64,000 bases of DNA. Origin: Bacteroidota bacterium. GTDB taxonomy: Bacteria; Bacteroidota; Ignavibacteria; Kryptoniales; JAKASW01. Of the stretch, positions 22,114-34,211 are shown one piece after another; the stretch's first letter is position 1; each line of letters begins with the position of its first letter. Below the pieces are notes generated by a model. The model ran no database searches and was not told the DNA's origin. It saw only the letters and a list, made by a program, of their open reading frames with translations. The stretch spans positions 62,001 to 126,000 of the forward strand of contig JAKAGT010000010.1 of assembly GCA_021825585.1 (NCBI GenBank). The letters run 5' to 3'. The translations under genes and the position numbers were made by a program.

Positions 22114-24792
22114 CTAAGGAACAACTTTAGCATAGGTGCCTGTTAAAAATTTGAAACTCATGTTTAGCTGCACTGCCCCGTGAGGTATGAGAACATACTT
22201 CCATGGTTTGCCAGCGTGCTTTATGGTGTAGTCGGTGGCATACTTACAGTACTCAAGGGCTGCTTTGGATTTCTGCTGAACCTCGTCGGAATTCATCTCG
22301 CCTTCCTTCTTTGTCTCCACCATATAGATGGCATCTGCCGTTTCTGCGACGAAGTCAGGGTGATATTGTCTTGTGTTGTGATTCCAGTAAATGTAGAACT
22401 GGTTCGATGCCGGCCTCAGCCACTTGAGGACGTCTTTGTCGCTTTCAAGAATGGCAGCGAAGTCCTTTTCTGTCTTGGAATCGAATTTGTATAGATTATG
22501 GCAGGCCTTTGAAAAGCCGCCGAAGATCTTGGTCGGGATTGCGCTTGTCGGTGTTATCGTGTCTGTGTAATGAAAGATGCTGTCCTTTGAATACTTCGAG
22601 TAATTGTGCTCCTCAATGCGGGTGAAAGCCCTTACGATCGGCTCCTGGAACGATGGCGTTTCAATGTAGAAATGCTCCATCAGCTGTGCATAGATGAAGT
22701 CGGCAATCTCTTTCTTGTGGTACTGAACAACGTTGACCAGCGGGTCCTCGTCAAGATAAGACCGGAAGTGTGTGATGGCTTCATCAGCAAGCTCAAATAA
22801 AAAGTCGGACTGTTTGTCGTAGTCGACCTCAGGGTGGTTGATCAGCTCGTTGACAATAATATTGTCAAGCCTGTCGGGTATAATTCGACCTCCCCCGATT
22901 ACTGTATCGGTGCCGTTTTCCTGTTCACGCAGCTTTTTTATCAGTATCTCCTCGGAAACAGGCTGATATCTCAGATTCTTCGCGTCAAGAACGAAAGGCT
23001 TGAATCCGGACTTTACCTCGTTAGACTGTTGTATGACAATTCTCGGGATCTCTATGATGTGCTGAGAAAATTCGGAAACAGCCGCTTCGTATTGCCTCTT
23101 TGCTTCGCTGATCAGCTCGCCGGCGAATAAGCTCTGCTGGGGATCAGAGGTTATGTGCTGCTCGATTTTCTGGAAGGCTATTTCGGCAACCTCTTTTGTG
23201 GTCAGGTCAGCTACGTTCTTTGCATCGGTGTTCAGTTCCGGAAGTACTGAGAGGATGAGTTTCTTTGCCTCCAGTTCGGAGAGCGCCTGTTTCTTTTCCG
23301 TTGCGTCGGTTATCGCCTCGATGCGCCGTTTGTCTTCCTCGGCCTTCTTATCGATTACGGAGACGCTGGTAACAACCTCCTTCGACTGCTCCAGCTCATC
23401 GACATCGATCTCGATGATGTTTTCCTTCCTGATGATCGAGTCCGGCTTATTCGCTTCGTCAATGATTTCCTGAAACTTGTCATGTGCTACGATCGTGAGC
23501 TTGTCGACTTTGTCGGCGCCGGTGCGCTTCCCGTATGGAAGACGAAGTCCGCGGCCGATTGTCTGCTCGCGAAGTGTCGTTGAAGCGGCCGCGCGAAGAG
23601 GAATAATCGTGTAAAGGTTTGTGACGTCCCAGCCCTCTTTCAGCATATTGACGTGAATTACGATCTCGATCTTATTCTCCGGGCTCTCCAGAGAGACGAG
23701 CTGGGCTATGTTTTCGTCCTTCTCTTCACCGGACTGGTTGGAGTGAATCTCCATGACTTTATCCGCGTAACGGCCGTCGAAAAACGAAGGAGAGGTTATC
23801 AGTTCTTTGAGCTGGCTGGCATGCTCGGTATCCTTGGATACGACAAGGACAAACGGTTTTACTTTCTGAGTCCTGGAGTCACGTGAATAGATGTCGAGCG
23901 CGACTTTGGTATCTTCGTGGATCCGAATGCCATCTTCGAGCTTTATCCGGTCAAGTTCCTCAGCCTTGTAATGGGAGGGGTCAAAGTCTTTGCGTGTCGC
24001 TACCGCGGGTTCCTTCACGAAGCCGTCCCGAATTGCCTTGGCAAGAGAATACTCATAGACCACGTTCTTGAACTTCGTGGTGCCGCCGCTTCGTTCGACC
24101 TGGGGTGTAGCAGTCAGCTCAAGGCCGAGGATCGGATTGAGCTCGTTTATGACTTCCATTCCCCGCTCGGCACGGTAGTGATGGGATTCGTCCATCAGCA
24201 GAACCAGATCGTCCAGATTCGATAGGTAATTGAAATACGATTCGCCGAGGTATTCCACAAGTCTCTTGATTCGCGGAAGCTTCCCACCGCGCATTTCTGA
24301 ATTTATTTTTGAAATGTTGAACAAGTTTATATGCACTTCGGACTCAAACAGCGCAATCTGCGACAGCGAGTCGTAATTGTCCCCGGTTACTATTTTCGGG
24401 CGGGAGTGAACGAACTCTCCGATGCCCTGGAAGACGTATTTGGGGCTTGAGGTGTTTTCGAAGTCCGCGATCAGCTTGTTGTAGACGGTTAAGTTGGGAG
24501 CCAGGACGAAGAAGTTCTTAATCCCTTTCTCAAGGAATAAATAAGCGGCGAAGGCGCCCATCAGTCTCGTTTTCCCGACGCCGGTTGCCAGTGCGAAGCA
24601 GACCGATGGAAAGCTGCGCTCGAAATCAGAACAGGTCGGATAGAGTGACTTCACCTTAGCAAGTTCCGATTGAATGTCGGCGTTTTTCTTGAGAGTTAAT
24701 CTATCCGTGATGGCGGAGAGGATATCGAGGCTGTCGGCTTGGGGCTGCCTGAGGCTGAGGCGGTTCTTGATCTGATTTGCGGTACGGTTCAT
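22114..24792 (-). CDS. res: Type III restriction enzyme, Res subunit (helicase-endonuclease)
   Basis: An 892-residue superfamily 2 helicase-nuclease. Walker A is at residues 69-75 (ATGVGKT), the DEAD-box equivalent DESH at 201-204, motif III-like LELTATP near 225 and motif VI IGRGLRLPYG at 412-420. The C-terminal PD-(D/E)xK nuclease is intact: P812-D813 in YHPDF and E826-T-K828 in YMVETKK. With a Mod subunit it would translocate and cut unmodified DNA. The mod gene is separated from it by a BRO-N gene, a GxxExxY gene and several palindromic repeats. It is the last gene of the island on this strand. Confidence 0.93.
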   Translation of the reverse strand: MNRTANQIKNRLSLRQPQADSLDILSAITDRLTLKKNADIQSELAKVKSLYPTCSDFERSFPSVCFALATGVGKTRLMGAFAAYLFLEKGIKNFFVLAPNLTVYNKLIADFENTSSPKYVFQGIGEFVHSRPKIVTGDNYDSLSQIALFESEVHINLFNISKINSEMRGGKLPRIKRLVEYLGESYFNYLSNLDDLVLLMDESHHYRAERGMEVINELNPILGLELTATPQVERSGGTTKFKNVVYEYSLAKAIRDGFVKEPAVATRKDFDPSHYKAEELDRIKLEDGIRIHEDTKVALDIYSRDSRTQKVKPFVLVVSKDTEHASQLKELITSPSFFDGRYADKVMEIHSNQSGEEKDENIAQLVSLESPENKIEIVIHVNMLKEGWDVTNLYTIIPLRAAASTTLREQTIGRGLRLPYGKRTGADKVDKLTIVAHDKFQEIIDEANKPDSIIRKENIIEIDVDELEQSKEVVTSVSVIDKKAEEDKRRIEAITDATEKKQALSELEAKKLILSVLPELNTDAKNVADLTTKEVAEIAFQKIEQHITSDPQQSLFAGELISEAKRQYEAAVSEFSQHIIEIPRIVIQQSNEVKSGFKPFVLDAKNLRYQPVSEEILIKKLREQENGTDTVIGGGRIIPDRLDNIIVNELINHPEVDYDKQSDFLFELADEAITHFRSYLDEDPLVNVVQYHKKEIADFIYAQLMEHFYIETPSFQEPIVRAFTRIEEHNYSKYSKDSIFHYTDTITPTSAIPTKIFGGFSKACHNLYKFDSKTEKDFAAILESDKDVLKWLRPASNQFYIYWNHNTRQYHPDFVAETADAIYMVETKKEGEMNSDEVQQKSKAALEYCKYATDYTIKHAGKPWKYVLIPHGAVQLNMSFKFLTGTYAKVVP

Positions 24793-24804
24793 AATGGTTT
24801 AATG

Positions 24805-24904
24805 GCACGCAGAAAACACTGAAGAAGCACAGATTCTCACTGATATGTCCATGATAATCGTCTTATCTGTAATCATCTCGTATCTTTCGGTGTCATCTGT
24901 GTGC
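24805..24904. repeat. Palindromic repeat R1
   Basis: A 100-bp copy of the island's repeat family, starting GCACGCAGAAAACACTGAAG and ending in TCATCTGTGTGC. The two ends are inverted copies of each other. It begins 12 bases upstream of the res start and is more diverged than R5-R8. Confidence 0.75.
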
Positions 24905-24923
24905 CATCCCTTTTTCTTTTATT

Positions 24924-25007
24924 GCACACTGATGACACTGAATCAACAGATTCGCACTGATTGAATTATCTGTGACCATCTCGTTTGTTTCAGTAAATTC
25001 TGCGTGC
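24924..25007. repeat. Palindromic repeat R2
   Basis: An 84-bp diverged copy of the same family, starting GCACACTGATGACACTGAAT and ending TTCTGCGTGC. Its last base is the first base of the complement of the GxxExxY stop codon (25007-25009), so it begins exactly at the 3' end of that gene. Confidence 0.75.
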
Positions 25008-25411
25008 TATTTCTTTTCCTTTCGGTCGTTTGTGAAGATCTTCCTCTTTATTTCAGGCTTTTTTCCAAAGTTGAGTAATAGCCCAACTTCAACATTTGTA
25101 GCCTTTAAGTAGTTAATAAGTTGATACTCATGTTCCTCAGCCAAAGCCTCAACAGCTTTGAGCTCAACGATGACTGTATCTTCCACAACAATATCGGCGA
25201 AATAGTCACCGACAATTGAATCCTTGAAATAAACCTTTATCGGTTGCTGAGCTTTTGCTCGCAAACCTTTTTCCGCAAGAACAACCAGCATCGCATTTTC
25301 ATAAACCTTTTCCAGGAACCCGAAACCCAGAGTGTTGTAAACCTCATAGAAGCAGCTAATGATCTTCTCGGTCAGTTCTTTGTGAAGATAGTTGCTCTTA
25401 TCTGTGGTCAT
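25007..25411 (-). CDS. GxxExxY protein (PD-(D/E)xK_3 family)
   Basis: A 134-residue protein with the defining motif G31-FL-E34-KV-Y37 and a PD-(D/E)xK-like core: D73 in FADIVVED, then E83-L-K85 in IVELKAVEAL. The family is widespread and uncharacterised; a nuclease fold is the usual prediction. The ATG at 25409-25411 lies inside an arm of the palindromic repeat (R3), so the first codons (MTTDKS) are repeat-derived, and the stop abuts R2. The frame is open upstream to 25570 through R4, but that part is only repeat translated. It may be the partner of the repeats rather than part of the restriction system. Confidence 0.87.
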   Translation of the reverse strand: MTTDKSNYLHKELTEKIISCFYEVYNTLGFGFLEKVYENAMLVVLAEKGLRAKAQQPIKVYFKDSIVGDYFADIVVEDTVIVELKAVEALAEEHEYQLINYLKATNVEVGLLLNFGKKPEIKRKIFTNDRKEKK

Positions 25412-25439
25412 CTCGTCTCTTTCTGTGTATTCTGTGTGC
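25391..25439. repeat. Palindromic repeat R3, single arm
   Basis: Only the right half of the repeat is present (TTATCTGTGGTCATCTCGTC through TTCTGTGTGC). The left half is replaced by the GxxExxY gene, whose start codon falls inside this arm. Confidence 0.75.
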
Positions 25440-25449
25440 AAAAAGCTTC

Positions 25450-25598
25450 GCACACTTGCCGCCTTGCGGCATCCCGCATCATCTAATAAATCTGATGTCG
25501 GAGCGGGAGATAACACTGAAAACGCACTGATTCCCACTGATAAGAAAATGTTATTCCTATCTGTGGTCATCTCGTCTTTTTCAGTGTAGTCCGTGTGC
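25450..25598. repeat. Palindromic repeat R4, composite form
   Basis: A 149-bp composite: a GCACACTTGCCGCCTTGCGG segment with 'AATAAATCTGATGTCGGAGC', then a standard repeat ending CCGTGTGC. It is a shorter version of R6/R8, lacking the middle part that contains 'GATTTTGTATGTCGGGATCC'. Its last base is shared with the complement of the BRO-N stop codon. Confidence 0.78.
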
Positions 25599-26443
25599 TA
25601 TCTTTTCTTTCCGTTATCAAGTTCTCTCCTTTTTCTCTGAGAAAGCTCTTTGAAGTTCTTGCTGGTCACAACTTTCCTGCCCGATTTCTTTTCCAACTCT
25701 TTTCTTGCGTTTCCAGCGACTGTTCCACCTTCTACGGCGGCCCTTTCATTCTCGGGGAGCCCTTGAGCGTCTTTATTGCGGGCTATCTCGGTGGTTGCTG
25801 CCTCGCCGAGCATGGTGAATATCAATTCCAGATCGGTCATGTGATCGCGGAGATTCTCTTGTGGCTTCGACAAGCCTTTGAATTTCTTGTAGTCGGCTGG
25901 GCTCAAGCCAAAGGTGGCTTTGCTTATGTCGGCAGTAAGTATCGCATACTCGACGCCTTCTTTGACACCGCGTTTTTTCCATTCAGCGGTCAATTCGTCC
26001 CGGACAGCGATGCCGCGGACACGTTTTTCGATCCACTCATCGCTGTAACCTTTTGCTTTATAGATCTCCTTCATTCGCGTCTGGGCAAGCTCAGGATTCT
26101 CAATTTCCTCAAGGCGTTCATTCCCAACTTTTGCTAACCAGAGCTTGAAGGGTTCTGCTTTCGGAGAAGGAATGGATTGAATAATTCTCAACAAGCCTTG
26201 CGCGTTTGCACAACTCATTCGCTGTCTTCCACCTGGAGTATCAACCGAAAGGGCAGGTACAAATTGTACCCATCCTTTGGCAAGTTCAGGATCACGCTGC
26301 TTCATTCGCTTCACATATTGCTTGGGATCGGCACTATCGGTCAAGGCGGCAACGACATCTTCGACAACGAAGTAAAGTTTCTGGTCTGCGTCGTTCCAAG
26401 CTGATCGAATCTTCTTTTCTTCAAAGAGTTTAATGTTCGCCAT
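25598..26443 (-). CDS. BRO-N domain protein (phage antirepressor-like)
   Basis: A 281-residue protein. The first 100 or so residues form a BRO-N/antirepressor-type domain (KLFEEKKIRSAWNDADQKLY, then VVEDVVAALTDS). A conserved region follows with QGLLRIIQSIPSPKAEPFKL, then the C-terminal DLELIFTMLGEAATTEIA and GGTVAGNARKELEKK. This family is common in Bacteroidota and near restriction loci; BRO-N domains bind DNA, but the role here is unknown. An excellent ribosome site (GAGGAGG, 26451-26457) precedes the ATG by seven bases, and a perfect palindrome (26463-26477) lies just upstream, so it may be autoregulated. It sits between mod and res. Confidence 0.85.
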   Translation of the reverse strand: MANIKLFEEKKIRSAWNDADQKLYFVVEDVVAALTDSADPKQYVKRMKQRDPELAKGWVQFVPALSVDTPGGRQRMSCANAQGLLRIIQSIPSPKAEPFKLWLAKVGNERLEEIENPELAQTRMKEIYKAKGYSDEWIEKRVRGIAVRDELTAEWKKRGVKEGVEYAILTADISKATFGLSPADYKKFKGLSKPQENLRDHMTDLELIFTMLGEAATTEIARNKDAQGLPENERAAVEGGTVAGNARKELEKKSGRKVVTSKNFKELSQRKRRELDNGKKR

Positions 26444-26462: not shown

Positions 26463-26477
26463 GTGACAATTTGTCAC
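26463..26477. promoter_or_regulatory. Putative operator: perfect inverted repeat upstream of the BRO-N gene
   Basis: GTGACAA-T-TTGTCAC, a 7-bp perfect inverted repeat with one-base centre. It lies 20 bases upstream of the BRO-N start and 6 bases upstream of its Shine-Dalgarno sequence. The size and symmetry fit a dimeric helix-turn-helix binding site overlapping the 5' leader. The binding protein is unknown. Confidence 0.55.
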
Positions 26478-26499
26478 GGTTTCGTTTCCCTCTTCTTTT

Positions 26500-26596
26500 G
26501 CACACAGATTCCACAGAAGAAGCACTGATTTTCACTGATAAGGAAATATTATTCTTATCTGTGTTCATCTCGTTTCTTTCTGTGTATTCTGTGTGC
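26500..26596. repeat. Palindromic repeat R5
   Basis: A 97-bp repeat beginning GCACACAGATTCCACAGAAG and ending TGTATTCTGTGTGC. It lies between the mod stop (six bases away) and the BRO-N leader. Confidence 0.8.
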
Positions 26597-26602
26597 TTTC
26601 TT

Positions 26603-28291
26603 TCAGAACAGCCTCTCCTGTTTTTCATCCGCCTTCTGCCTCTTTGACTTCGATGGGTTGGAGGCGATAGGGCCGGTCGGAACGAAATCGGGTTCACCGT
26701 CTTCTCGGGGCATATTTATGATGTTCAGACTGTAATCCTCTTTGCCGAACTCGCACCGGCCAAGGAGCATCTTCGGAATCTTCTTGATCGTGATGTTCGG
26801 GTACTTATCAGCAGCCTTGCTGAAAGAGGTGCAGCAGATCAGAAGACTTTCATCCGATTTCATTTCGCTCTGAATTGTATCCACTAAGTCGACGCTGACG
26901 AAGTTCGTCGTGGTGAAGATATAGTCCTTTTCAGTGGACTGGCCCTGCTTCCAGTAGTAGGTTTCGTCCGGCTGGAATCGGAATCCTTCATGTTTTGCCA
27001 TTGCGGCGGCAAGCTGTGCAGCATTGTACTGCTTGTTGATGATCCAGTTGCCCTTCTTGTCCTGGAGAAGCAAAGATGGAGCGAGGTAGTAGTACTTGAA
27101 TCCACCGCCGCCCTTCCAGTTCTGAGCTTCGCTGATGCCGCCCTGGTCTGTTCCATCACAGACCATCTTTAGCCGAGGAATGCAATGAGTATGGCAATGT
27201 TCGCCAAGTTCGATGCCAATCCATTTGCGCTTCATCTTGTGAGCGACAGCGGCTGTAGTGCCTGAACCAAGGAAGGAGTCGAGAACCCAGTCGCCTTCCT
27301 TTGAACCAACAGCAATAATGCGGTCGATTAGGCGTTCAGGCTTGGGGGTTGCAAAAATCTCCTCGCTGTTGAAATCCTTCACTTCTCGCTTTGCCTCTTG
27401 GTTATCACCGACTTCTTGTCGGAGCCATATGGTCTGGCACACCATTCCTTCTTGGACTTCCGAAAGGAATCGCTTCACCCGAGGTACGTTATTTCCATTA
27501 GCGCCGAAATAAAGTCGTTTATCTGCTAATAGTTCCTGATACCTCTTGGGACTTGCGCCCCAGCACCGACCACTGGGCGGAAGTAGTGTTCGTCCGGACG
27601 GCGTTACAATCTCATAAATGTTTCCACTTTCACCAGTTCGTGCAAATTGGGCGCCACGTTGTCCGCCAGTGAGACTAATCGTAAAGTCACTTGACATCCA
27701 CATTCCGCGAGGGTCATTGTCCGGGTTTCTGTATCTTGACTCAGCCAGCACTGATCTCTCAAGTAAATTCGGTCTCCATGTTTGTTTGTCCCTTGCATAT
27801 ACAAGTATGTGGTCATGACTGTCGGAAAGCCAAACCGCATTGGCCTGCGGGGAAGATTTCTTCTGCCAAATGACATTGTTCACGAAGTTTCTTCTCCCAA
27901 AAACTTCATCGCATAAGATCTTTAAATAATGGCTTTCATCGTCATCGATGGATATCCAGATTGAGCCGTCATTGCTAAGCAGCGAATACAGAAGCTCAAG
28001 ACGGGGTTTCATCAGGTTCAGCCAGATTGAATGTTCGAGGCTGTCATCATAGTGTTCGAATGCGTTGCCCGTGTTGTACGGTGGATCGATGTAAATGCAC
28101 TTTATCTTTTCAGCAAAGTTCTGTTCGAGTGCCTTCAAGGCGAGCAGGTTGTCACCGTAGATGAGCATGTTCTCGGTGTTCTTGTCGCCGTAAGACTTCT
28201 CTGGATCTTCGATGAGGATTCGCGGCTCGAGCTTGGGCTGCTCGCCTTTGCCGATCCAGCTTAGTTCGAGTTTTTGTTTGTTGTTAGTCAT
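26603..28291 (-). CDS. mod: Type III DNA methyltransferase (Mod; adenine-specific, beta class)
   Basis: A 562-residue site-specific N6-adenine methyltransferase. The catalytic motif IV DPPYNTG is at residues 69-75 and the SAM-binding motif I FLGSGTT at 340-346, in the order typical of beta-class enzymes. The start region (LELSWIGKGEQPKLEPRILI, then YGDNLLALKAL) is characteristic of type III Mod proteins. The central residues 140-320 would hold the target-recognition domain. It specifies the recognition site for the Res protein at 22114. The gap to the upstream gajB-like gene is 83 bases. Confidence 0.94.
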   Translation of the reverse strand: MTNNKQKLELSWIGKGEQPKLEPRILIEDPEKSYGDKNTENMLIYGDNLLALKALEQNFAEKIKCIYIDPPYNTGNAFEHYDDSLEHSIWLNLMKPRLELLYSLLSNDGSIWISIDDDESHYLKILCDEVFGRRNFVNNVIWQKKSSPQANAVWLSDSHDHILVYARDKQTWRPNLLERSVLAESRYRNPDNDPRGMWMSSDFTISLTGGQRGAQFARTGESGNIYEIVTPSGRTLLPPSGRCWGASPKRYQELLADKRLYFGANGNNVPRVKRFLSEVQEGMVCQTIWLRQEVGDNQEAKREVKDFNSEEIFATPKPERLIDRIIAVGSKEGDWVLDSFLGSGTTAAVAHKMKRKWIGIELGEHCHTHCIPRLKMVCDGTDQGGISEAQNWKGGGGFKYYYLAPSLLLQDKKGNWIINKQYNAAQLAAAMAKHEGFRFQPDETYYWKQGQSTEKDYIFTTTNFVSVDLVDTIQSEMKSDESLLICCTSFSKAADKYPNITIKKIPKMLLGRCEFGKEDYSLNIINMPREDGEPDFVPTGPIASNPSKSKRQKADEKQERLF

Positions 28292-28374: not shown

Positions 28375-30120
28375 TCAGGTAATATCAAGTTTCTTCCTCC
28401 ATACTTCACAATCACTTTCAGGCACAGCGATCCATAATATTTTACGAGGACGTGTCATGGCGACATAAACCGTTCTAAGTTCTTCTTTTTGTTTACTGGA
28501 CAAAGTCTTTTTAGGAAATAGTAAAGTCTCATAATTTGAGTTGCCTGCTTTGTGAGCAAGAACCAACATGACCGCCTCGAAAGTCTTGCCTTTGGCTGAG
28601 TGAATTGTTCCCAAAAAACACTCAGCGTTTGATGGTTGGGCATCCATTTTAAATAGATTCTTTATGGCCACATCTGATTTCTTAGCATGTGTGCTCAACT
28701 TAATGTTGATCTTATCACTCAAGAGGAGCTGGTTTGCTTCGGCTATCCACTGCTTCAACACTGCTTCGCGAGTCGGGGGCAAGAGATTAGCGAATTGAAA
28801 AATCTTGTTCCGATAGCTCTTGAAGCCTAGCTCTTCAATTTTGTTATTGATGAATTCCTCGGAACAGAATTTTAGGCCTGGCTCCACTGCCTTATGGTAT
28901 CCCCTTTCAATTGATCTGAAACCTCTTCTAAAATCTCCGCTTTCCAGCAAAAACTTTCCAAAAACAATTTCTCTCACATAGCCATGATTAGTGAGCCACG
29001 GCTCTTCGGTTTCTTCAATGGTTGATACTCCGCACCATTTGCCTACAACACGGCGGCTCCGGAATAGCACGGCGACATCCTCTGAATTAATAGTGATCTG
29101 TCTGTCCTTGCAACACTGCAGGTATTCTTGCACAATCTGGTTTACACTTTTTTCGTCCTCTTTGTGCATTACTACGCGGGGCTTGTAATTGTAATCCTTG
29201 TCTGCTCCTATCACTTCGTAGTTTGGGATGCCAAGAAGATGTCGGCTACAATCACAGATGGATCTTGAACTCCTCCTGTTCTCATTCAGATCTATTCGAC
29301 ACCACTTCTCCAGTTCATATTTCTTCGTGAATAGTTCTGGCCTAGCATTATTCCATTCAAAGATTGCTTGGTCAGGGTCTCCAATCAAAGCAATTTGATT
29401 CAAGCCCTTGTCCTTCAATATGTCAATAATTGCTATTTGTAGGTCATTTGTATCCTGACCTTCGTCAATAATGAAGTGTGAAAACCTATTCAGGATGCCT
29501 TTCCCTATGAGACTGTAATCCTTCAAGATTCTATGCGCGATGTATATCGCGTCGGACTGGTTGGCTTTTCCGTCTTTGAAAAGTGTCTCTTTCGAGCTTC
29601 GAATGTGATTCCGTAAATGGAGATATTTACCTCCAAAGAAGGTATTGAGAATATTTCCGATGGGTATCACTTCCCCTGCGATATCGAAACTGAATAGATC
29701 AAAATATTGATAGAAAGCTTTTTCTCCATTGCCTAGGTTCGGATAATACCATCTGTTGTAAGGTTCTCCGACTAACTCTGGACGTTTTCCGCAGCTCATT
29801 ATCAGGTGGCCAAATGGCAAGAAGATGTATTGATTTATGAAACTATCGATGGTTCCGATGAAGTGAGGGTATCCTACAGGAGTTTTGACATTAAAGGCTT
29901 CTTTGAGTTTCTTTTCTATTTCTTGCCAAGCCACATTTGTAAAAGAAAGTGCTGCAATACCTTTACGGGAAAAATCAAATTGGGGATCATGAAGCAATCG
30001 GGCGATCCGCGCGGCAACCGAATATGTCTTGCCGCTACCTGGACAGGCCTTCACGACAAAAATTCCATCCTGGTTGACTACTCTTTTTTGCTGTGCCGAC
30101 AATGAATCTTCATTTATCAT
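28375..30120 (-). CDS. gajB: GajB-like UvrD/PcrA-type helicase (Gabija-type)
   Basis: A 581-residue SF1A helicase with all core motifs: Q motif LSAQQKRVV, Walker A ACPGSGKT, DEGQD in motif II, IGDPDQAIFEWNN in motif III, IHSAKGKTFEAVM in motif V and YVAMTRPRKILW in motif VI. I start it at ATG 30118-30120, which overlaps the gajA-like stop by 11 bases (ATGATAAATGA), indicating coupling. The frame is open upstream inside gajA but without homology. A UvrD-like helicase directly after a class 2 OLD nuclease gene is the Gabija anti-phage arrangement. It is somewhat longer than the GajB proteins I know of (about 500 residues). Confidence 0.88.
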   Translation of the reverse strand: MINEDSLSAQQKRVVNQDGIFVVKACPGSGKTYSVAARIARLLHDPQFDFSRKGIAALSFTNVAWQEIEKKLKEAFNVKTPVGYPHFIGTIDSFINQYIFLPFGHLIMSCGKRPELVGEPYNRWYYPNLGNGEKAFYQYFDLFSFDIAGEVIPIGNILNTFFGGKYLHLRNHIRSSKETLFKDGKANQSDAIYIAHRILKDYSLIGKGILNRFSHFIIDEGQDTNDLQIAIIDILKDKGLNQIALIGDPDQAIFEWNNARPELFTKKYELEKWCRIDLNENRRSSRSICDCSRHLLGIPNYEVIGADKDYNYKPRVVMHKEDEKSVNQIVQEYLQCCKDRQITINSEDVAVLFRSRRVVGKWCGVSTIEETEEPWLTNHGYVREIVFGKFLLESGDFRRGFRSIERGYHKAVEPGLKFCSEEFINNKIEELGFKSYRNKIFQFANLLPPTREAVLKQWIAEANQLLLSDKINIKLSTHAKKSDVAIKNLFKMDAQPSNAECFLGTIHSAKGKTFEAVMLVLAHKAGNSNYETLLFPKKTLSSKQKEELRTVYVAMTRPRKILWIAVPESDCEVWRKKLDIT

Positions 30121-31957
30121 TAACAGCCCACTTGATTCCCTTTTGGATATAATCTGGGACAATAAACTTGGACCTAAGCTCTTCAAAATGATCTTGTAGA
30201 TGCATCGCAAGCTTGTGAGCTAATTCAGATTTGTCTCTAAAGGAATCGAGTTTGTCTAGCAGGTCCATGGCCCGTTCTTCATTACTTCCTTCGCGCTTTA
30301 ACTTAGTATGGGTATGAATTCCTTCGTAAATCTCACGCATTATTTTTTCGTTTTCATCCGAAGCAGTGAATAATTCATACTCGAAAGTCTTTCGTGCTAA
30401 AAGGACATCGACATTGCCTTTCTTCAGGCTCTCTGCGATCAAAGCCCGTGGCGACTTGTTCCCGCCATTCCTGTGGCTGTCATCATCTGTTAGGAGCGCA
30501 CAATGTATGTTGAGTTTCTTTGCGCCGTCTTTATCCGAAGCTATGAAGAGATTAGCAAAATGTTCAAACGCAACTCCGCCGACGACCACTACTTCTATGC
30601 CTTTCCGTGCTATGTCATATTTTATCTCTTTGTGACCGTCGTCTTTGCCTTCGTTAGCAAGGTGATCCATGATCTTTGAAAATATCGGAAGTAATAGTCC
30701 TTCAGAAATTCCTTCAACTAAAATTATTCCCTTTGAGAAAAACAATTGCGACTTTGTAACATCAAGAAACTTAGAAAGGTATTTCCTGTTTTCTGGTGAC
30801 AGATTGGAGTCTTTCAATGCCAGAGAAGAGACTTCACCAAAGTTCCTCCTCATCACCGTAATAAACTCAAGATTTGTTTTAGCAGTTATTGTTGGGGAAT
30901 GAGATGTAATGAATATCTGGATATCTTTGTCCTCAAACGAGTTAATGTATTTGAAAAAAGTGTTTTGCATCTGAGGGTGCAAGTGCGCTTCAGGTTCCTC
31001 AATTAGCAAAGCATGATAATAGCCCTTTTCCTTTCTATTGATCAAATCTCCCAAGACTGTTGCCGCGTAGATTAAGTTGTTCTCTCCAAGTCCGTTTTGA
31101 AATAGAGTGAAGTATCTTTGCTCTGCTCCATGTTGGATCTTTTCTTCACTTAAAATCGGAATCTGCAACTGAAGGTTATTTATGATATCGTCATATTCGT
31201 ACCCCGAGAATCCAACTTCTATTTCTTTATTGTCGCCTTGAATGGATGATTCTTTGAAATGTTTATTGACCTTCGTCTCCCCTTCCGCTATCAAGTATTT
31301 CCAATCGTTACCATCGTCATTGAGCCAATTTACTAGCTTGTCCGCAAGTTCCTTCTTTTTCTCCTTATCCAATTTCTGTGTACCACCATCTTTGGTGTAT
31401 TGCAGTAAGCTTTCGAACAGCGAAACCAACTTATTATTGTGGCTGTACGGTCGCAGCTTTTGTGTTGCATCCCTCAGCGCATCCAAGAATGTGTAGTCTA
31501 TGAATTGAAGGGGCTCAGAAGGAACACCCTGCCCTTCATTCGTGCCACCCCATATTTTCCAGCGAGGTATCTTTCTGTCGTTTTTCTCTTCCAACCGATA
31601 ACGAAAATGAATCTGGATTTCTTGAGACTCGACGTTGTCTTTATCTTGAAAGAGCAACTCATTGAACAGGCCGCGTTCAGAATCGTCTTCAATATGAAAA
31701 TGCAAATCAAACTCGATCTCAGGCAGCGTAACAGTACTGCTATCTTTATCAATGTGGAAGTCGGACGGTCGAATACCGATGTCCCGCCATTGCTTGCCAT
31801 ACCCAAGACAAATCCTCAAAGCGTCGATCATCGACGACTTGCCCGAATTGTTTTCACCAATGAAAACATTGACCCCTTTGTTGAAGGTCAAATCTAAAGA
31901 TTCAATGCAGCGGAAATTACGGATCTTGAATTCTCGCAAGTACATAGGTGATTTCAT
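30110..31957 (-). CDS. gajA: GajA-like OLD-family ATPase with TOPRIM nuclease domain (Gabija-type)
   Basis: A 615-residue protein. The ABC/SMC-like ATPase has Walker A GENNSGKSS near residue 35, a signature-like GLGENNLIYAA near 290, Walker B LLIEEPEAHLHPQ near 320 and a histidine switch ITSHSPTI. The C-terminal TOPRIM domain has the glutamate in ILVEGISEGLLLP and the acidic pair in LLTDDDSHR. OLD proteins nick or cut DNA; in Gabija, GajA forms a complex with GajB. The ATG overlaps the DUF2130 stop by four bases (ATGA), and the stop overlaps the helicase start. Sampled lines read about 43-48% G+C against about 53% in the left part of the window, which hints at horizontal transfer. Confidence 0.88.
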   Translation of the reverse strand: MKSPMYLREFKIRNFRCIESLDLTFNKGVNVFIGENNSGKSSMIDALRICLGYGKQWRDIGIRPSDFHIDKDSSTVTLPEIEFDLHFHIEDDSERGLFNELLFQDKDNVESQEIQIHFRYRLEEKNDRKIPRWKIWGGTNEGQGVPSEPLQFIDYTFLDALRDATQKLRPYSHNNKLVSLFESLLQYTKDGGTQKLDKEKKKELADKLVNWLNDDGNDWKYLIAEGETKVNKHFKESSIQGDNKEIEVGFSGYEYDDIINNLQLQIPILSEEKIQHGAEQRYFTLFQNGLGENNLIYAATVLGDLINRKEKGYYHALLIEEPEAHLHPQMQNTFFKYINSFEDKDIQIFITSHSPTITAKTNLEFITVMRRNFGEVSSLALKDSNLSPENRKYLSKFLDVTKSQLFFSKGIILVEGISEGLLLPIFSKIMDHLANEGKDDGHKEIKYDIARKGIEVVVVGGVAFEHFANLFIASDKDGAKKLNIHCALLTDDDSHRNGGNKSPRALIAESLKKGNVDVLLARKTFEYELFTASDENEKIMREIYEGIHTHTKLKREGSNEERAMDLLDKLDSFRDKSELAHKLAMHLQDHFEELRSKFIVPDYIQKGIKWAVNDK

Positions 31958-33222
31958 TCTCCAGTTTGGTTTTCGTTCGAACCCAACAGCTTCATATCCA
32001 AGCCTTCAATCTCCTGCATTGTCTTGCCCGCGATGCCCTGCAAGTCTCCGTACATACCAACCGTCGCTACCATCACGTGTTCGATCTGCTCTTCTCTCTT
32101 GGCCCACTGCTTCGTGATGGCTTTCTTCTCCCTATCCAGGTTTTCCTGCATCGTGGAAAAAGCCTCGACGATAGCCTGCACGCGCTGCCGGAAGCGCGGG
32201 CCGGTAAGATACTGATATACCATCTCCATCTTGGTTTGCTGACCTTCAGTGGCAAGTCGGGCGGAGGCCGTCTCAATGAGTCCCTGACGCAGCAGGAGCG
32301 CAACTGCCAAGGCAGCTTTGGGAGTCGTAACGTAAACGCCATCAACCAGGTCGAAGAGGTCAACATTCTTTGGCAGCGATTGTGACACTATTACGGCAAT
32401 CTCGGCCTTCGCGGCTCGCTGATCTTCGCGGAGCTTCGGCAGCCACGAATCGCTCCAGGCTTTCGTACGCTTCGATTCCCAAATTATTGTTCCACTCTGC
32501 TGGCCGAGCGGACTGACAACTCTTTGCAGAACATCGCCGCCGTGTTCGCCCTTGGCAACGGGTTCAATCAGGTCATGTGGAAATTTGGAGCGCAACAAGC
32601 TTTCCAGCTCAAGCTCCTGGACCTCACCCTGCAGCTGCTGCGAGCCTTGCTCAGCTTTTCGCTTCATCTCCTCAGCGAGTTTCTTTTGATCGTCAAGTTG
32701 CTTTTCCAACTCTCTAATCTTCATGGTAGAAGATTCATCGAGTTGTTTTTGGATTTTTACTCTTTCTTCCTTCAGCTTCTCCGAGTATTCTTTCTCTTTT
32801 TCGAGAGCTACTTCATCACGAAGCTCATTCTTTTCACGTTTAAGCTTTTCAATTTCGGCTTTGGCTTTATTAAGATCTTTTACCTGTCCGGATTTCTGTT
32901 CGAGTTCTCTCTGCAAAGACTTGATTTGCGCGTCCGTCTCTTCTTTCATTTCTTCACGAATGGACTTCTCCATCTTGAGTTTTTCAGAGTTGAGCTTTGC
33001 CTTGATTCCTTCGTTGATCTGCTTCTGGAGATGTTCTCGATCCTTTTCCAGTTTCTCTTTTTCCTCGTCTAAGGACTTGACCTTCTTCTCTAACTCTTTT
33101 TCTTTCTTTGCACTTTTCTCGTCATACTCTTTTTTGAGTTGCTCCTGGACCTGGCGATATAAGATTTCGCTAACATCGATTTTTGCGCCGCATTTCGGGC
33201 AGTTTATTGTTGGTTCTGCCAT
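31954..33222 (-). CDS. DUF2130 protein: zinc-ribbon, long coiled coil and PD-(D/E)xK-like nuclease domain
   Basis: A 422-residue protein. The N-terminal CPKCG (C8, C11) resembles half a zinc ribbon. A highly charged Lys/Glu coiled coil covers about residues 22-200. The DUF2130 domain follows, with a nuclease-like core: D230 in HGGDVLQRV and E249-S-K251 in TIIWESKRTK, matching PD-(D/E)xK spacing. The protein is uncharacterised in general. The stop overlaps the gajA-like start by four bases, making it the first gene of a coupled three-gene operon. The start is preceded by TGAGGT, and repeat R6 ends only 25 bases upstream, so the promoter must lie in or across the repeats. Confidence 0.88.
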   Translation of the reverse strand: MAEPTINCPKCGAKIDVSEILYRQVQEQLKKEYDEKSAKKEKELEKKVKSLDEEKEKLEKDREHLQKQINEGIKAKLNSEKLKMEKSIREEMKEETDAQIKSLQRELEQKSGQVKDLNKAKAEIEKLKREKNELRDEVALEKEKEYSEKLKEERVKIQKQLDESSTMKIRELEKQLDDQKKLAEEMKRKAEQGSQQLQGEVQELELESLLRSKFPHDLIEPVAKGEHGGDVLQRVVSPLGQQSGTIIWESKRTKAWSDSWLPKLREDQRAAKAEIAVIVSQSLPKNVDLFDLVDGVYVTTPKAALAVALLLRQGLIETASARLATEGQQTKMEMVYQYLTGPRFRQRVQAIVEAFSTMQENLDREKKAITKQWAKREEQIEHVMVATVGMYGDLQGIAGKTMQEIEGLDMKLLGSNENQTGE

Positions 33223-33247: not shown

Positions 33248-33441
33248 GCACACTTGCCGCCTTGCGGCATCTCCCGTCAAAAAGATTTTGTATGTCGGGA
33301 TCCCGCAAAGCGGTGACCGCATCATTTAATAAATCTGATGCCAGAGCGGGAGATGACACAGAAGAAGCAATGATTTTCACTGATAAGAAAACAATATTTC
33401 TATCTGTGATCATCTTGTCTCTTTCCGTGTGTTCTGTGTGC
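33248..33441. repeat. Palindromic repeat R6, long composite form
   Basis: 194 bp. A GC-rich inner segment (starting GCACACTTGCCGCCTTGCGG, with GATCCCGCAAAGCGGTGACC) is followed by a standard repeat ending TTCTGTGTGC. It is about 95% identical by eye to R8 and of exactly the same length. It lies directly upstream of the DUF2130 operon. Confidence 0.85.
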
Positions 33442-33451
33442 TAAGAGCTTT

Positions 33452-33548
33452 GCACACCGAGAACACTGAAAAGGCACTGATTTTCATTGATAAGAAAATA
33501 GCATTTCTATCCGTGGTCATCTCGTTTCTTTCTGTGTATTCTGTGTGC
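33452..33548. repeat. Palindromic repeat R7, standard form
   Basis: 97 bp, from GCACACCGAGAACACTGAAA to TGTATTCTGTGTGC. About 15 of the first 20 bases match the reverse complement of the last 20, and inner parts also pair imperfectly (TGATAAGAAA with the complement of TTTCTATCCG). It is a good model copy of the family. Confidence 0.85.
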
Positions 33549-33558
33549 CAAAAACTTT

Positions 33559-33752
33559 GCACACTTGCCGCCTTGCGGCATCTCCCGTCAAAAAGATTTT
33601 GTATGTCGGGATCCCGCAAAGCGGTGACCGCATCATTTAATAAATCTGATGTCGGAGCGGGAGATGACACAGAAGAAGCAATGATTTTCACTGATAAGAA
33701 AACAATATCTCTATCTGTGGTCATCTTGTTTCTTTCTGTGTATTCTGCGTGC
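33559..33752. repeat. Palindromic repeat R8, long composite form
   Basis: 194 bp, a near-identical direct repeat of R6, with R7 between them. It marks the right-hand limit of the repeat family in this window. Confidence 0.85.
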
Positions 33753-34211
33753 CGTTGTTTTATTCTGTCACCCACTGCCATCGGGATTTTCGGTATGAGA
33801 TAAAGCTGGTTACTCATACAAGATATTGATCCAAAGAGTACTTTGGACAAATTCACTCTAGAATAGAGTTTTCCGAAATCATGACGGTCCGCCCTTCTGT
33901 AAATTGTGATCAGCCAGTCCCAAATTACTGTTGGGTAAAATTTATACGATATACCGAGGAATAACAAACGTCCGACCCGTTCGGCATGCCTAGTGCAATA
34001 TCAGGAATCAATTCCAACAAATCATCTTCTACAATAGTAGACAAATGTTCACCAAGAAAAATGTATCTCTCCTGAAAGAGAAAGTCAAGATGGTAGGTGT
34101 ATTGCAGGATAATATTAGTATCCCACTGAAAAACAGGAGGATACCAGGATAGGCAGACTATCTTTTATTGTGAAATATCAGATAGAATTCCGTCTATCTA
34201 CCTTAAAATAA
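33753..34211. other. AT-rich interval with possible decayed coding sequence
   Basis: 459 bases with no intact gene. On the minus strand, a stop-bounded frame without a start (reading ...WYPPVFQWDTNIILQYTY...) runs to a TAA and then appears to continue in a shifted frame (FLGISYKFYPTVIWDWLITI, then LYSRVNLSKVLFG and NQLYLIPKIPM) until it meets repeat R8. This looks like a degraded gene interrupted by a frameshift and by the repeat. I do not recognise the family. Confidence 0.35.

Follow-up and report, generated by a model that had tools for sequence, protein, structure and literature searches.

Gene content of the locus

The window analysed here, a stretch of 64,000 nucleotides of Bacteroidota DNA, carries seven genes from a DUF2130 gene through res that cover 22.1 to 33.2 kb and all lie on the minus strand. 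With the repeats upstream of them, these features are:

33317-33768, upstream of the locus: GxxExxY-type repeats (repeat-family search, D1-D6, and pattern search)
31954-33222, minus strand: DUF2130 gene, 422 aa (Pfam DUF2130, E=1.4e-75)
30110-31957, minus strand: gajA, OLD-family ATPase with TOPRIM nuclease domain, 615 aa (PADLOC GajA, E=8.5e-156; GC3 0.455)
28375-30120, minus strand: gajB, UvrD-like SF1 helicase, 581 aa from ATG 30120 (PADLOC GajB, E=1.2e-192; GC3 0.44)
26603-28291, minus strand: mod, type III (beta-class) N6-adenine DNA methyltransferase, 562 aa (PADLOC MTase_III, E=8.5e-196; Pfam N6_N4_Mtase; GC3 0.575)
25598-26443, minus strand: Bro-N / DinD-like gene in the interval between mod and res (PADLOC PDC-S13, E=4.4e-116; Pfam Bro-N)
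25007-25570, minus strand: GxxExxY protein, PDDEXK_3 (Pfam PDDEXK_3, E=9.3e-42; TIGR04256), with a true start probably downstream of 25570
22114-24792, minus strand: res, type III restriction subunit, 892 aa, helicase plus C-terminal PD...ExK (PADLOC REase_III, E=4.6e-183)

Inspection of reading frames and junctions places a four-base ATGA overlap between the DUF2130 gene and gajA and an 11-base overlap between gajA and gajB when gajB begins at ATG 30120; the listed gajB start at TTG 30210 (ORF 28375-30210) is probably not the real one. Coordinates and junctions thus agree with the preliminary description of this DNA, which had reported three genes overlapping in series, but its three-gene span overlooked that the run continues on the same strand into a type III restriction-modification (RM) operon, with mod beginning 83 bases after gajB and the Bro-N/PDC-S13, GxxExxY, and res genes following. 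The arrangement suggests that the genes from DUF2130 to res are co-expressed; promoter and terminator scans of the locus gave results near chance level.

The gajA-gajB pair is, by gene content, a complete predicted Gabija system, in line with what had been proposed for it earlier and with the PADLOC matches. An OLD-family ATPase with TOPRIM domain adjoins a UvrD-like helicase, and the motifs of ATPase (Walker A GENNSGKS, EEPEAHLHP), TOPRIM domain (LVEG and DDD), and helicase (PGSGKT, DEGQD, GDPDQ, TIHSAKG, and VAMTR) are intact; the structures in the PDB matched by GajB include Gabija GajB itself (8jqb). Both genes are complete and adjoining as in other Gabija systems, yet the pair does not stand alone and instead lies within a type III RM operon behind a DUF2130 gene. 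This operon is recognizable from a Mod with DPPY and FLGSGTT motifs in its translation (the latter fitting FxGxG) and a putative helicase-nuclease Res with GKT, DESH, PDFV, and ETK motifs. It resembles known Mod-Res systems in its beta-class methyltransferase and in having mod before res on one strand, but differs from them by a DUF2130 gene and a defense cassette 5' of mod and by two genes between mod and res.

Repeats of 50 to 140 nt that share the core TCTTTCTGTGTATTCTGTGTGC flank the locus and also stand between the genes mod, Bro-N, GxxExxY, and res, with further copies at 24801-25007, 25389-25614, and 26472-26612 punctuating the mod-to-res part. Five of the 6 near-exact copies of the core in the genome lie within the locus. 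Of the 6 GxxExxY matches in the genome, one has an internal stop and another is short. An ORF of 185 aa at 33410-33967 was rejected as a gene and represents translated repeat DNA.

The DUF2130 protein as a predicted nuclease

The DUF2130 protein is composed of an N-terminus with a CPxC motif, a coiled coil (approximately residues 23-213), a PD-(D/E)xK-like alpha/beta domain (approximately 214-300), and a helical tail. Its C-terminal domain shows 75% mean column identity across phyla, and an alignment of 115 homologues shows no variation at E203, D230, E249, or K251, nor at G199, G225, G228, R312, or F344. A PD-(D/E)xK-like core formed by D230 and E249-x-K251 had already been suspected from the single sequence, and the invariance of these three residues is in keeping with it; together with E203 they make up the E...D...ExK residue pattern of the superfamily. 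The zinc ribbon suggested alongside is reduced to a single CPxC pair, C8 and C11, which is nearly invariant among the 115 homologues and is a putative zinc-binding site.

In the AlphaFold (AF2) models (mean pLDDT 77 at full length and 82 for the C-terminal part), a long coiled coil precedes an alpha/beta domain that places strands around D230 and E249-x-K251, and the tail is helical. The Foldseek matches of these models in the PDB are individually weak, with the best nuclease at E of about 0.006 to 0.008 and none at E<0.001; most of them are PD-(D/E)xK nucleases (SPARDA, MspJI, Bax1, McrBC, and EcoRV), but unrelated matches such as Rep15 score about as high. Sequence searches of the PDB returned coiled-coil or chance matches only, and similarity to PADLOC-DB entries is weak and limited to the coiled-coil parts of LmuB and JetC. 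Taken together, conserved residues and models make a DNase with coiled coil and PD-(D/E)xK domain the probable identity of DUF2130.

A phage or prophage origin of DUF2130 was rejected, with neither single-sequence nor profile searches finding relatives in viral contigs and with partial matches only in phages of Helicobacter heilmannii. One of these DUF2130-like matches (BK070122.1, 28403-29197, H79) covers the C-terminal 62% at 37% identity.

A variable slot between DUF2130 and mod

A scan with the DUF2130 protein of the window, using one genome per species, returned 48 homologous loci (35 of them with more than 5 kb of sequence downstream), and a scan of plasmids returned 45 records. Type III mod and/or res genes follow DUF2130 on the same strand at 11 of the 48 loci, in several phyla, and a DrmD-like SNF2 helicase precedes it at 10, though these loci were picked by DUF2130 homology and form a small sample, so that such frequencies are not a census. 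One further locus, L016, retains remnants only of mod and res and was counted apart from the 11. Genes at these loci generally follow the order (DrmD-like)-(AlbA/Schlafen or other)-DUF2130-(slot)-mod-(slot 2)-res-(Fic), and the slot between DUF2130 and mod is occupied differently from locus to locus:

L016 and L018: Ppl/TrlF-like
L019 and L020: OLD/AriA (in L020 with Bro-N)
L022: a 911-aa protein
L039: DUF4297-HerA
L042: SIR2-like plus SMC-like
L054: PDC-S46
L061 and L036: PDC-S06
L025 and L027: nothing above about 140 aa

Slot 2, between mod and res, varies as well: the window has Bro-N plus GxxExxY there, Aliarcobacter has RhuM, and L042 has a YhcG-type nuclease. No close match to the DrmD-like helicase (E<=1e-80) was found in the genome of the window, and PADLOC detected no DrmA, DrmB, or DrmC among the nine window genes scanned; the locus therefore lacks the combination of DrmD-like SNF2 helicase and DrmA/B/C that characterizes DISARM.

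Plasmid p63 of Aliarcobacter butzleri carries DUF2130-GajA-GajB-mod-RhuM-res, the same order as in the window, with a GajA only 25% identical to that of the window and a GajB missed by blastp, both confirmed as Gabija by PADLOC. The DUF2130 neighbor of Gabija is thus not confined to one genome, a point on which the earlier reading of the locus as an extended Gabija had been made to depend. According to that reading, DUF2130 would be a third component, adding a nuclease or sensor that associates with GajAB or licenses it. The four-base translational overlap of the DUF2130 gene with gajA speaks for it, as does the recurrence of the order in Aliarcobacter with a distant Gabija, and Granulicella shows a looser DUF2130...GajA-GajB neighborhood with an opposite-strand NB-ARC gene in between. 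However, DUF2130 does not regularly accompany gajAB: tight pairing is found only in the window and in Aliarcobacter, both of which are also type III RM operons, and no DUF2130 neighbor is present at Gabija loci in the phylum of the window whose GajB belongs to the same subfamily (L069-L071) or at Aliarcobacter-type Gabija loci on plasmids (L161 and L162). Furthermore, the cargos that DUF2130 precedes in this same position are many and unrelated.

Among these plasmid loci, pOCN014 of Vibrio coralliilyticus (L161, 5971-10154 and 12498-16018) has a Gabija, and a further pair of AAA protein and UvrD helicase located 2.3 kb downstream looks, from its annotation, like another one. The plasmid of Pontibacter kalidii (L162, 3650-14302) has AbiE, Gabija, Fic, and a TaqI-like RM protein in a row.

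Composition sets the Gabija genes apart

The GC content of gajA and gajB is 0.41 to 0.42, compared to 0.485 to 0.496 in DUF2130, mod, and res and about 0.52 in the surroundings. At third codon positions (GC3), DUF2130 (0.563) closely matches mod, while gajAB stand at 0.447 (z -4.1 and -5.1), which marks gajAB as foreign between two matching genes. Across ten loci, the deviation of cargo from flank in GC3 averages 0.102 as opposed to a DUF2130-mod difference of 0.038 (Wilcoxon p=0.019), though among these ten the contrast is unclear in L064, L019, and L020 and mixed in L018; the exceptions include the AT-saturated Aliarcobacter plasmid.

This composition separates DUF2130 from gajAB and, together with the Gabija relatives that lack DUF2130 and the presence of DUF2130 beside mod-res regardless of Gabija, makes an extended Gabija quite improbable. 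What stands of the preliminary description are the overlapping run of genes, the Gabija pair, and a plausible nuclease; what does not is the idea that this nuclease extends Gabija. Since DUF2130 occurs beside type III mod-res with or without Gabija and shares the codon composition of mod, it is better read as a part or frequent accessory of the RM system, probably as a partner that recurs with the restriction operon rather than as a third Gabija subunit.

From their low GC3, gajAB seem to have been acquired separately, which would also be compatible with a simple stacking of DUF2130, Gabija, and type III RM as unrelated systems that met by chance in a hotspot, with the overlaps arising from later compaction. 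Clustering is general among defense genes, most DUF2130 genes stand alone (see below), and the locus is punctuated by repeats, all as might be expected from such a process. Nevertheless, several phyla share the order (DrmD)-DUF2130-slot-mod-res, closely spaced and on one strand, and repeated entry of cargo into the same interval is not predicted by random stacking. We therefore regard this explanation as unlikely.

DUF2130 is an optional member of type III operons

Most DUF2130 homologues do not adjoin RM genes. Within the phylum of the window, DUF2130 is found in 63 of 395 genomes and is almost always apparently standalone, while the same genomes contain a window-like mod in 22 cases and a DrmD-like helicase in 28. 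Linkage to RM is scattered over the DUF2130 tree with 11 changes, at least 6 of them forced by well-supported branches, and a single clade of RM-linked DUF2130 was rejected on these grounds. The Mod tree likewise intermingles operons with and without DUF2130 (7 changes, 6 of them forced), and a joint descent of DUF2130 with a single Mod lineage was rejected. Several genomes of the phylum combine mod and DrmD-like helicase with variable cargo in related type III operons that have no DUF2130, which is therefore not obligatory. Judging from these comparisons of sequences, DUF2130 is a recurrent but optional member of type III operons.

Two operons without DUF2130, L135 (2239-14890) and L136 (2264-15001), have the order DrmD-like - SMC-like - AIPR/AbiU-like - mod - YhcG - res, with the genes annotated for L135 and taken from the matching layout for L136. 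The slot between helicase and mod is hence used with or without DUF2130.

Given that it is mostly standalone, DUF2130 may have a general role and travel with RM only sometimes. A specific version of this idea would see it as a housekeeping, RmuC-like nuclease of DNA maintenance that was recruited for protection or repair of the host against leaky restriction and not for attack on phages. RmuC likewise combines a coiled coil with a PD-(D/E)xK domain, and the strong conservation of the C-terminal domain of DUF2130 would also fit. Conversely, DUF2130 is found repeatedly inside defense operons and on plasmids, and RmuC domains have themselves been co-opted for defense, acting as a non-specific DNase in Shield (PMC10270631). 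The Shield protein ShdA and DUF2130 share a PD-(D/E)xK-like nuclease domain, but ShdA is membrane-bound, and the Pfam RmuC model gave no match to the C-terminal part of DUF2130 at E<=1. On balance, a housekeeping role of this kind seems rather improbable.

Gabija as probable cargo of a DUF2130 / type III RM operon

We consider it fairly probable that the locus is a composite defense operon in which a type III RM core with DUF2130 as its 5' partner has gajAB embedded in a variable slot. The core would consist of mod and res, in the window without the upstream DrmD-like helicase of many relatives, with gajA-gajB as the cargo between DUF2130 and mod, and Bro-N/GxxExxY would fill the second slot, downstream of mod and ahead of res. 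Mod would methylate self DNA and Res would cut unmodified invading DNA, whereas the DUF2130 DNase may work on the same foreign DNA, e.g., by further cutting or by degradation from Res-generated ends. Gabija could then serve as an independent second layer, with its helicase/nuclease acting on linear DNA and ends missed by the first layer or by host repair. Gabija of P. aeruginosa is reported to act on linear DNA that is not engaged by RecBCD (PMC12407980), and cut or linear DNA is thus a plausible meeting point of the layers. We infer both the nuclease activity of DUF2130 and any functional hand-off between the layers.

The embedding of defense systems in RM operons is already published: TgvAB is found within type I RM of Vibrio cholerae (PMC11411939) and DarTG2 within type I RM of E. 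coli (PMC12255303), and "guilt by embedding" is attributed to Payne et al. 2024 (doi 10.1101/2024.01.29.577857). As in the cases of TgvAB and DarTG2, a complete second defense system lies within an RM operon, but the window differs from them in its type III RM, in the position of the slot between DUF2130 and mod, and in the recurrence of DUF2130 at the slot edge. Similarly, OLD, HNH, PD-(D/E)xK, and Schlafen effectors are inserted into BREX core loci as a backup layer (PMC12839542), though these are BREX cores rather than type III RM and DUF2130 is unmentioned there. New is the DUF2130/type III slot: PADLOC-DB and the open-access papers searched contain no description of DUF2130 in defense, and the open-access literature searched none of a DUF2130-bordered slot in type III RM operons.

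A bolder and doubtful proposal would be that DUF2130 and type III RM, often with the DrmD-like helicase, form a modular immune chassis with interchangeable backup effectors in a fixed slot, where DUF2130 would act as an adaptor linking restriction, or a failure of it, to whatever cargo the slot contains and Gabija would be one of about 8 plug-ins seen. In the composite operon that we favor, DUF2130—an uncharacterized, widespread, and strongly conserved protein—would gain a testable role as a defense nuclease tied to type III restriction. The recurrent insertion slot exchanges known systems (Gabija, DUF4297-HerA, and OLD) and uncharacterized proteins, and could be used to discover new defenses and to test the cooperation of embedded systems.

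The 911-aa slot protein of Geobacter sp. AOG1 (L022, 11309-14041) is without Pfam or PADLOC match and is a candidate new defense protein. On a plasmid of Chryseobacterium oryzae (L066, 2249-11279), DUF2130 stands before a type I hsdM-hsdS...hsdR-like set that is followed by a reverse transcriptase and a response regulator.
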